DNA of 64,000 bases, taken from assembly GCF_003428335.1 (NCBI RefSeq), contig NZ_CP031704.1, positions 1,178,001 to 1,242,000 on the forward strand, read 5' to 3'. The position numbers and the translations under genes are program-made. The notes under the pieces are model-generated. The model saw only the letters and a list, made by a program, of their open reading frames with translations. It had not been told where the DNA came from and did no database searches. The DNA is from Solimonas sp. K1W22B-7 (lineage in GTDB: Bacteria; Pseudomonadota; Gammaproteobacteria; Nevskiales; Nevskiaceae). Below, piece after piece: positions 10,561-63,471 of the stretch (positions are counted from its first letter, which is position 1; the number at the start of each line of letters is the position of its first letter).

Positions 10561-10570
10561 GGTTTTTATT

Positions 10571-10594
10571 CCCTCTCCCGCCAGCGGGAGAGGG
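10571..10594. repeat. Single REP-like hairpin between convergent genes
   Basis: CCCTCTCCCGC, CA, GCGGGAGAGGG form a perfect 11-bp stem 10 bp after the AsmA stop. It is the same family as the element at 2860. Its position between convergent genes suits a role in transcript end formation, although no U-tract follows. Confidence 0.8.
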
Positions 10595-10716
10595 GGTTCT
10601 CCAATCTTTGGTTCCTACGCCGGTGCTAATGATTGGGCGCGCGGTTAACTCTTAAGCGCTCTTCGCGACGCTAAGATCCCCAACTTCGTTGGGGCCCCTC
10701 CACGCTGCTCAGAACT

Positions 10717-38054: not shown

Positions 38055-38186
38055 CCCCTCTCCCGCTTGCGGGAGAGGGTGGCCCGCAGGGCCGGGAGAG
38101 GGTTTCTGTAAATGCCCGATGGGTTACTCCCACTCGATCTACAGAAACCCTCTCTCCCGGCCTCTCTCCCGCAGGCGGGAGAGAGG
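38055..38186. repeat. Compound REP-like inverted repeat in the fliQ-fliR gap
   Basis: A hairpin CCCTCTCCCGC-TT-GCGGGAGAGGG (38056-38079) and its counterpart (38161-38186) flank an inner pair, GAGAGGGTTTCTGTA against TACAGAAACCCTCTC. The whole is one large foldback. The same inner sequence GAGAGGGTTTCTGTAAATG occurs inside cheA at 46929. It breaks an otherwise gap-free flagellar operon and ends 8 bp before the fliR ATG. Confidence 0.88.
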
Positions 38187-46361: not shown

Positions 46362-48230
46362 ATGAGCTCAGGCGTCGACGACGACATCAGGCGCGATTTC
46401 CTGCAGGAGGCGGGGGAGCTGGTCCAGCGCCTGTCCGAGCAGCTGATCGAGCTGGAGAAGTCCCCTGGCGATCCGGAACTGCTCAATGCCGTGTTCCGCG
46501 CCTTCCACACGGTGAAGGGCGGTGCCGGCTTCCTCGAACTGCAGCCGCTGGTCGAGCTGTGCCACGTCACCGAGGACGTCTGCAACGGCCTGCGCAGCGG
46601 TCAGGCCAGGCTCGACAGCACCATGATGGACTGCCTGCTGCAGTCGCTGGACCAGGTGCAGCTGATGCTGGACTGCGTGGCCAAGGACCAGGCGCCCAGG
46701 GCCGCACCCGAGGATCTGCTGGACGCGCTGCGCACGCTGGCCGCCTGCGCCGCGGCGCCGAAGCTGGAAGCGCTTGCCGTGGTTGCCGCGCCGGCCGCCG
46801 CCAGCGACACCATTACCGACGATGAATTCGAAGCGCTGCTGGACCAGTTGCAGGGCAAGGCGCCTGCGGCTCCGGTGGCTGCGCTTGCCATTGAGAACCC
46901 CTCTCCCGCTTGCGGGAGAGGGGAGGGGGAGAGGGTTTCTGTAAATGCTGAGGTCATGGCCACAGCAAGTTCTACAGCACCCTCTCCCCCCGCCCCTCTC
47001 CCGCAAGCGGGAGAGGGGAGCAAAGCCGCACCCGCCGAGACCCAGGTCCGCGTCGATACCCAGAAGCTCGATCGCATGATGAACCTGGTCGGCGAACTGG
47101 TGCTGGTGCGCAACCGCCTCAAGTCGCTGCAGCAGCGCTCCGCCTCCGACCCGGTGTCGCGCGCGGTGGCCGAGCTGGACTTCATCACCCGTGCCCTGCA
47201 GGGCGCGGTCATGCAGATCCGCATGCAGCCGATCAAGCGCGTGTTCTCGCGCTTCCCCAAGCTGGCGCGCGACGTCGCCCGCGGCCTGGGCAAGCAGATC
47301 GAGGTGGAGCTGCAGGGCGAGGACACCGACCTGGACAAGAACCTGGTCGAGGCCCTGGCCGATCCCTTGGTGCACATGGTGCGCAACAGCGTGGACCATG
47401 GCATCGAGCTGCCGGAGACGCGCCTGCGCGCCGGCAAGCCCGCCGCCGGCCGCCTGACCCTGGCGGCGCAGCAGCAGGGCGACCACATCCTGATCACCGT
47501 GCGCGACGACGGCGCCGGCATCGATCCCGAGCGCCTGCGCCAGAAGGCGCTGCAGAAGGGCCTGGTCGATCCGGCCGCCGCGGCGCAGATGACGCCCGAG
47601 GAATGCCTGGACCTGATCTTCCTGCCGGGTTTCTCGACCAAGGAACAGATTTCCGACCTGTCCGGCCGCGGTGTCGGCATGGACGTGGTGCGCTCGCGCA
47701 TCCGCGAGCTCAACGGCCACGTCACGATCGACTCCAAGGTGGGGCAGGGGACCTGCTTCCGCATCCGCGTGCCGCTGACGCTGGCGATCCTGTCGGCGCT
47801 GATGATCCATGCCGGCGGGCGCCGCTACGCGCTGCCGCTGGGTCCGGTGCGCGACGTCTTCGTGCTCGACGACAGCCGCGTGCGCAAGCTCGACCGCTGG
47901 GACGTGGTGATGCTGCGCAACGAACCGCTGCGCCTGGTCTACCTCGATCCCTGGCTGCAGTCCGCCGCCAGCGACCAGCCGCGCCATGTCGCGGTGGCCC
48001 ACGTCGACGAGGAACGCTACGGCTTCGTGGTCAGCGAGGTGCGCGGCCGCGAGGAAATCGTCATCAAGCCGCTGGGCGCCTCGCTGCGCGGCCTCACCGG
48101 CGTCGCCGGTGCCACCGTGATGCCCGACGGCCAGGTGGCCCTGATCCTGGATTTTGGCGGCCTGGTACAGGCCTATCGTCAATCGCTGGCCGCCCCACGG
48201 CCGTCAACTTTGGAAAACGAGCATGGATAA
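46362..48230 (+). CDS. cheA: Chemotaxis histidine kinase CheA (first, flagellar cluster)
   Basis: A 622-residue kinase. The P1 phosphotransfer domain has H49 in FRAFHTVKGGAGF. A short region up to about 178 leads to a linker of about 40 residues encoded by a dispersed repeat (46898-47018). Then come P3 dimerisation (LDRMMNLVGELVLVRNRLK), P4 ATPase ([19 protein letters not shown]) and P5 regulatory domains. A clear P2 CheY-binding domain is not visible. It takes signals from receptor-CheW arrays and phosphorylates CheY. The ATG at 46362 follows one base after cheZ. Confidence 0.95.
   Translation: MSSGVDDDIRRDFLQEAGELVQRLSEQLIELEKSPGDPELLNAVFRAFHTVKGGAGFLELQPLVELCHVTEDVCNGLRSGQARLDSTMMDCLLQSLDQVQLMLDCVAKDQAPRAAPEDLLDALRTLAACAAAPKLEALAVVAAPAAASDTITDDEFEALLDQLQGKAPAAPVAALAIENPSPACGRGEGERVSVNAEVMATASSTAPSPPAPLPQAGEGSKAAPAETQVRVDTQKLDRMMNLVGELVLVRNRLKSLQQRSASDPVSRAVAELDFITRALQGAVMQIRMQPIKRVFSRFPKLARDVARGLGKQIEVELQGEDTDLDKNLVEALADPLVHMVRNSVDHGIELPETRLRAGKPAAGRLTLAAQQQGDHILITVRDDGAGIDPERLRQKALQKGLVDPAAAAQMTPEECLDLIFLPGFSTKEQISDLSGRGVGMDVVRSRIRELNGHVTIDSKVGQGTCFRIRVPLTLAILSALMIHAGGRRYALPLGPVRDVFVLDDSRVRKLDRWDVVMLRNEPLRLVYLDPWLQSAASDQPRHVAVAHVDEERYGFVVSEVRGREEIVIKPLGASLRGLTGVAGATVMPDGQVALILDFGGLVQAYRQSLAAPRPSTLENEHG
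46898..47018. repeat. REP-like compound repeat inside the cheA coding sequence
   Basis: Two hairpins, CCCCTCTCCCGC-TT-GCGGGAGAGGGG (46898-46923) and CCCCTCTCCCGC-AA-GCGGGAGAGGGG (46993-47018), flank GAGAGGGTTTCTGTAAATG, the same layout and inner motif as the element between fliQ and fliR. It is read through in the cheA frame as about residues 179-219 (ENPSPACGRGEGERVSVNAE and onward), with no stop codon. Confidence 0.92.
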
Positions 48231-62985: not shown

Positions 62986-63173
62986 TGCGGCGCCATACGC
63001 AGCGCCTGGAGGAGAGAGGCCTCTCGCAGCTCGTGGGACTATTTTAATTTCTGGCGGGTGTGATCTCCTAACGGAGTTCCGTATTTTTGCTGGGGTTAAT
63101 ATCTTCGGGCCTCCCCCTCTCTCGGCAACTGCTCCATGCGTTGCCCTACCTCGGGAATCCATTCCCTCGCCAA

Positions 63174-63198
63174 CCCCTCTCCCACGAGGGGAGAGGGG
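63174..63198. repeat. REP-like hairpin variant
   Basis: CCCCTCTCCC, ACGA, then GGGGAGAGGGG is a shorter variant of the CCCTCTCCCGC family, with ACGA in the loop instead of the GC-N2-GC centre. Confidence 0.7.
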
Positions 63199-63289: not shown

Positions 63290-63471
63290 CGTTGGGCCCC
63301 TGTTGTGCGGGTGCCTGCGCGGGGGGCGGGCGCAGGGTCGAGCCGGACAGGACGTCCGGCCGAGGACACGCAGGCCATGGATGGCCTGTGTGTCCGACCC
63401 GTCGCGCTCGACCACCGTGCAGGTTGCCCCGCTTCAGCGGGGCCGCCCGCACCCAGGGTGTGCTTTCTTTG

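Follow-up and report, generated by a model that had tools for sequence, protein, structure and literature searches.

The cheA gene and its embedded palindrome

The stretch of DNA from Solimonas sp. K1W22B-7 analysed here (64,000 nucleotides, referred to as the window) carries a cheA gene on the + strand (positions 46362 to 48230), whose product of 622 aa contains the Hpt, H-kinase_dim, HATPase_c and CheW domains of Pfam by which a protein is classed as CheA. The P1/Hpt domain (residues 9-100) was located at 46386-46661 and the P3 dimerisation domain (H-kinase_dim, residues 228-286) at 47043-47219, both by Pfam and on the + strand. The linker is preceded by the ITDDEFEALLDQL motif (46812-46850, + strand), which is conserved among CheA orthologues and frequently doubled in those from outside Solimonas.

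Within the linker, at 46898-47018, lies a palindromic element; no strand was assigned to it or to its arms and hairpins. It consists of a left outer hairpin (46898-46923), a left inner arm ending in GGGTTTCTGTA (46925-46943), a centre of 29 nt (46944-46972), a right inner arm (46973-46990) and a right outer hairpin (46993-47018). Both hairpins are perfect, with 12-bp stems, and they sit inside a 46-nt inverted repeat whose arms, 85% complementary, enclose the centre. The cheA reading frame stays open across the whole element, with no frameshift that would point to a pseudogene and, judging from the sequence, the element is probably translated as about 40 residues of the P1-P3 linker (approximately residues 180-219), as the initial annotation had proposed. 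A scan of Rfam returned no match for the element; elsewhere in the window, positions 63333-63403 matched the TwoAYGGAY RNA (48.8 bits).

The initial annotation had also suggested that the insert took the place of a P2 domain or displaced it, a reading favoured by its position between P1 and P3, the place of P2 in E. coli CheA. However, the Pfam scan of this protein detected no P2 domain, and none of 38 CheA proteins (this one included, some with an insert and some lacking one) gave a P2 or CheY-binding match at E 0.01. This result is no proof, because HMMER misses many P2 domains (PMC10542144, available sections), and according to the same sections more than half of CheA proteins have no P2. 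We consider a replacement of P2 extremely improbable.

A dispersed family of palindromes in the Solimonas genome

The pattern CTCTCCCN5CGGGAGAG, allowing at most one mismatch, occurred 224 times in the 5.37-Mb genome and its reversed-pattern control only once, showing that the family is dispersed and far above chance. The copy between fliQ and fliR (38055-38186, strand not assigned) indeed had the same build as the cheA element, and GAGAGGGTTTCTGTAAATG, said to be shared by the two, has its only exact occurrences on the + strand of the window at 38096 and 46929. This copy is absent from Solimonas fluminis (L362), where the stop and the start are 8 bases apart. The window also contains a copy of a second subfamily with the inner arm GGGTGAGGGTGG (2859-2977), a lone hairpin of the family (10570-10595) and a lone family-related hairpin (63172-63198), none of them assigned to a strand.

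In the whole genome 68 paired and 23 single copies were read, one entry (L009) being the cheA copy once more. They fell into at least two subfamilies, distinguished by the inner arms GGGAGAGGGTTTCTGT and GGGTGAGGGTGG, and GGGAGAGGGTTTCTGTAAAT (at most two mismatches) was present in all four genomes of the genus and in none of 57 other relatives. Of 53 copies of the first subfamily, to which the cheA element belongs, 45 had both inner arms recognisable. Because the loops of these 45 copies (loci L010-L202) varied freely in sequence and yet fell almost entirely into two length classes (38 measured 31-33 nt and six 16 nt), a structural rather than a sequence constraint is suggested. Of 97 readings of this subfamily, 72 were open in the GERVSV frame, whereas the two remaining frames of the same strand were open in 3 and 40.

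No target-site duplication of 3-8 bp was detected among 67 paired copies, there being no excess over shuffled pairing. In the flanks of these copies TTCTGT and ACAGAA were common directly outside the hairpins; since they echo the inner arm, the true element may be a few bases longer than its hairpin bounds. The cheA copy lacks these flanks. A further palindromic module around GGGGATGGATCCCCGAGGTAGGGCAACGCATGGAGCAGTTGCC was nested in the arms of longer copies (L169, L171, L173 and others).

When 89 copies were submitted to a codon-usage frame test, leaving out L009 and one copy too close to the end of its locus, two were in frame in genes, namely that of cheA and one in a NasA-like nitrate reductase. 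The reductase of S. fluminis, shorter by 38 residues, has an empty site, and the sister species G003 has the insert.

CheA orthologues and the P1-P3 linker

The closest named CheA was that of S. fluminis (87%). The CheA proteins of genome G002 and of other genera aligned on both sides of the insert and showed no recognisable copy of the family there, but the sister species G003 (L120) carries the insert in an identical placement. The CheA of S. fluminis was also alignable on both sides and had no recognisable copy of the Solimonas family; its linker is of similar length and may contain a decayed copy, since it resembles the element weakly by eye, but the score was poor (nhmmer E 4.1, equalled by 11 of 500 shuffles). 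The G002 linker contains a short tandem GATTCCC repeat, which is translated (L122, 2077-2220).

The comparison of the two insert-bearing species bears on whether the insert was exapted, that is, selected as a linker or as an mRNA hairpin limiting the CheA level. Its frame and length are kept in both, and the span from ITDDEF to KLDRM measures 89 residues with the insert and about 49 without it, near the 83 and 81 residues of sister species. The proportion of identical third codon positions between this genome (G000) and G003 was 0.88 in the arms (34 codons only), 0.80 in P3-P5, 0.67 in P1 and 0.29 in the loop (7 codons). Folding the element as RNA gave -105 kcal/mol (z -12.9), a hairpin strong enough that it may affect the cheA mRNA. 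However, fixed arms and a free loop are what the family shows at large, intergenic copies included, and other CheA orthologues manage without the insert. Exaptation thus seems unlikely to us, and the insert most likely acts as a neutral linker.

Palindromes were also found in CheA linkers outside the genus, in genomes G019 (L138), G005 (L133, one hairpin) and G021 (L128), as well as in Nevskia sp. D1_Bin_22 (L042, genome G061). They were dispersed in their own genomes, with at least 22 matches in G019, 95 in G061 and 78 in G021 (lower bounds, with up to 40 candidates scored in each, counting the cheA copy and both strands). A search of G005 with the G061 element, instead of its own, gave 25 matches, one of which was the hairpin in G005 cheA. 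In G021 two unrelated families lie side by side in the linker, the first beginning with GTAG. The CheA linker therefore holds resident dispersed palindromes in at least four lineages, a count set at this level because the insertions in G005 and G061 may go back to a single event.

A blind hairpin scan of 104 of 110 cheA genes (six without a recognised P3 start being omitted, and several loci being duplicate records of one genome) detected CCCTC(T/G)CCC-type hairpins in four genes (L042, L119, L120 and L138), in every case in the linker; the palindromes of L128 and L133 fell below its threshold. Hairpins of other types were present in linkers and domains of further genes. Our literature search found no paper on CheA with ParP and a localization and inheritance domain.

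In-frame insertion in other proteins

In Nevskia G061, five of 37 loci were open in frame by the codon-usage test (UvrA, LeuRS, ValRS, NirB-like and Tgt), and a sixth, UreC-like, was recognised by eye (L243); names other than LeuRS, ValRS, UvrA and Tgt were assigned by eye. The closest solved orthologues of these four proteins do not have the inserted residues. None of three copies was in frame in G019, and one of 20 was in G021, a doubtful case (L263) which by eye is probably a read-through between two adjacent genes and was rejected. The counts for these three genomes rest on best matches and not on random samples.

The LeuRS insert of G061, a metagenome-assembled genome (L288, C1:1274187-1274504), consists of a palindrome, a DUF559 domain and a second palindrome, all in frame, which add about 157 residues in the region of the editing domain; within this 1029-residue protein, the parts that match E. 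coli LeuRS are residues 29-392 and 550-1028. Because this insert contained a DUF559 nuclease, PF04480 was examined further. Apart from LeuRS, Pfam placed DUF559 within HsdS (L333, L336 and L339), HsdM (L332), a class I/II aminotransferase (L317, BioF by eye), two N6_N4 methylases (L307 and L352) and HsdR (L343), and at the end of an AIRS protein (L354, SelD by eye). No inverted repeat above the threshold was detected around the DUF559 genes of L343 and L354. In the three HsdS proteins, which come from Gammaproteobacteria of different families, the element occurs soon after a shared FK(S/D)WF(I/V)DF(D/G)PV motif, and this spot appears to be a second recurrent landing site.

A rival possibility is that the palindromes serve as terminators or regulators for DUF559 and the genes next to it and were multiplied by recombination, with no part for the nuclease in their spread. 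In its favour, the copies of this genome are mostly intergenic (87 of 89 not in frame in a gene) and fold strongly. In contrast, gene-bearing elements lie in frame within conserved proteins, both arms included, and the sites between fliQ and fliR and in the NasA-like reductase have clean empty counterparts. We therefore judge this explanation to be very unlikely.

DUF559 nuclease genes between inverted repeats

PF04480 (DUF559) gave 17 matches, all above the curated cut-off, in eight genomes including that of the window. Sixteen were located by tblastn (L291, a partial match, was not), and 13 of these lay between inverted repeats (13-14 of 16 when repeated three times with different shuffles; an initial count by eye had been 14 of 17). 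A class-wide draw of 229 genomes had the domain in 54 of them, and inverted repeats flanked 51 of the 71 located matches (52-53 in three reruns with other shuffles), the remaining 20 having no flanking repeats; here L317 and L360 were counted once and four short matches were left out. Control windows of 310 bases elsewhere in the same loci were flanked in only 4 of 767 cases, with 60 shuffles per test against 100 for the DUF559 genes. In one rerun, 53 of 65 flanked cases carried a separate hairpin in each arm, and the arms were not always of the CCCTCTCCC type, some being AT-richer or longer. Outside the class, two of four DUF559 matches in a plasmid collection were flanked (Deinococcus aetherius and Azospirillum lipoferum), and those of E. 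coli and A. brasilense were not.

All three DUF559 genes of the Solimonas genome (L275, L283 and L290) were flanked. Two of the gene-bearing relatives, L199/L283 and L190/L290, have the same ends as short copies, and the inner arms of L199/L283 are the same as in the cheA copy, suggesting that the centre of the cheA element (46944-46972) corresponds to the position of DUF559 in gene-bearing elements. Short copies may be internal deletions of the nuclease-bearing copy, but their loops could not be clearly recognised as fragments of its gene. When 45 short-copy loops were compared with one end of the nuclease interior, the mean score was 6.56 against 5.55 for shuffles (single-shuffle sd 1.15); against the rest of the interior there was no excess over shuffles, and none of the 45 scored 10. 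The idea that the nuclease reading frame is built into the arms was discarded, both arms being open in 23 of 66 cases class-wide and other frames doing no worse.

The hairpin CCCTCTCCCN1-9GGGAGAGGG was present in 43 of 54 genomes with DUF559 and in 29 of 175 without it, with medians of 6.5 and 0 (Mann-Whitney p 2e-20, uncorrected for G+C). There were exceptions in both directions: 11 genomes without DUF559 had at least five hairpins and 11 with DUF559 had none of this pattern.

An orthologous nuclease element lies between alike flanks in G000, G002 and G003, with dN/dS of 0.13-0.22. Residues D45, E56, D58 and H62 of DUF559, which we take to be catalytic, were invariant in 26 aligned sequences. 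Compared with the PDB, the profile matched the endonuclease-like protein 3hrl (1.2e-40) and 3r3p, the mobile intron protein named I-Bth0305I (4.3e-5); matches at E 0.04 and above were treated as chance. A literature search, with most subscription journals lying outside it, yielded no paper linking DUF559 to palindromic repeats, PMC12907096 included as far as its available text goes.

Tyrosine transposase loci

The initial annotation had pointed to a REP-associated tyrosine transposase as the partner of the repeat, and the genome does contain 11 Y1 transposase matches. In the ordinary REP/RAYT arrangement such an enzyme would move the repeat in trans, and DUF559 would be a mere passenger favouring palindrome loops. 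RAYT-moved REPs are the standard model, and some RAYT-like genes are flanked by GGGGWSAS inverted repeats (PMC3733652, available sections); the inner arms of the present elements fit GGGGWSAS, and the absence of target-site duplications agrees with such a mechanism. However, eight of the 11 Y1 loci were examined and none carried a hairpin of the cheA type, whereas five of the eight had other inverted repeats of their own. In addition, direct reading of the ends of 46898-47018 found neither a GTAG nor a CGTC tag, and it is the DUF559 genes of this genome that are flanked without exception. A tyrosine transposase as the mover is, in our opinion, quite unlikely.

The repeats flanking the Y1 genes of L001, L003, L004, L006 and L008 had sequences very unlike that of the cheA element, GTAG or GGGGACAG motifs occurring in some of them. 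A two-mismatch pattern match common to L004 and L005 was not a hairpin of the cheA-element kind and was rejected.

Discussion

In our preferred interpretation, which we hold to be probable, the cheA insert represents the gene-less, MITE-like version of a palindromic element whose larger members bear a nuclease; it is tolerated in a disordered linker, and this nuclease would move the family. We infer that the DUF559 nuclease, and not a tyrosine transposase, is responsible. Elements of this class are built of an outer hairpin, an inner arm, a loop, an inner arm and an outer hairpin, and in gene-bearing members the loop is replaced by a single gene, a Vsr-like DUF559 nuclease of the PD-(D/E)XK type. 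The nuclease may cut the hairpins or the target DNA, after which repair would perhaps copy the element, and short gene-less copies would be mobilised in trans. Copies within genes would be kept only if they are open in frame and their Pro/Gly/Arg-rich peptide is tolerated by the protein, the disordered P1-P3 linker of CheA being presumably one such tolerant and repeatedly hit site.

A broader proposal, which we advance tentatively and hold to be somewhat short of an even chance, concerns the common CCCTCTCCC...GGGAGAGGG palindromes found in many Proteobacteria. They would be non-autonomous members of a separate class of mobile element, driven by a lone Vsr-like DUF559 nuclease instead of a transposase. 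Such elements could insert in frame into conserved proteins, whether or not they carry the nuclease, and the CheA linker and the HsdS spot would be recurrent landing sites.

What moves many of the abundant palindromic repeats of bacteria is unclear, and CGTC repeats apparently have no dedicated transposase (PMC3733652, available sections). Since one small nuclease gene is placed tightly inside such palindromes, the DUF559 nuclease is a concrete and testable candidate. If it is the mover, selfish DNA can spread without a transposase, and there would be a route by which such DNA turns into parts of essential enzymes and of a signalling kinase.

Several known systems share part of these features. 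Like MITEs, the Solimonas elements are short and non-coding, have terminal inverted repeats, and exist as numerous gene-less copies with a larger gene-bearing relative; unlike with MITEs, no target-site duplications were found, and we know of no DDE transposase for them. The Vsr-like homing endonuclease of the mobile intron (PDB 3r3p) has a related nuclease domain (E 4.3e-5), but here there is no intron, and many unrelated sites are occupied instead of one homing site. The core of CheA proteins without P2 comprises the same domains (Hpt, dimerisation, ATPase and CheW) together with an unstructured stretch (PMC10542144, available sections), part of which is repeat-derived in Solimonas.

REP/REPIN repeats with their RAYT (REPtrons) and TIRYTs are likewise dispersed palindromes with paired hairpins, intragenic copies and a gene flanked by its own repeats (PMC3733652, available sections), but the elements described here have no GTAG or CGTC tag, and the flanked gene encodes a DUF559 nuclease instead of a Y1 transposase. 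The initial annotation had called a palindromic repeat turned into a protein linker unusual, which is fair, although intragenic palindromes are already known (PMC10969869, PMC3733652 and PMC2759123, available sections), with intragenic REPs and the Rickettsia palindromic elements (RPE) as precedents. The latter are palindromes of about 100-150 bp lying in frame in many unrelated proteins (PMC10969869, available sections), and in-frame copies in several unrelated proteins of one genome were found here too, in G000 (2 of 89) and in G061 (5 of 37 and the sixth by eye). The likeness is one of build, and the Solimonas-type elements differ from RPE in their lineage and in including nuclease-bearing members.
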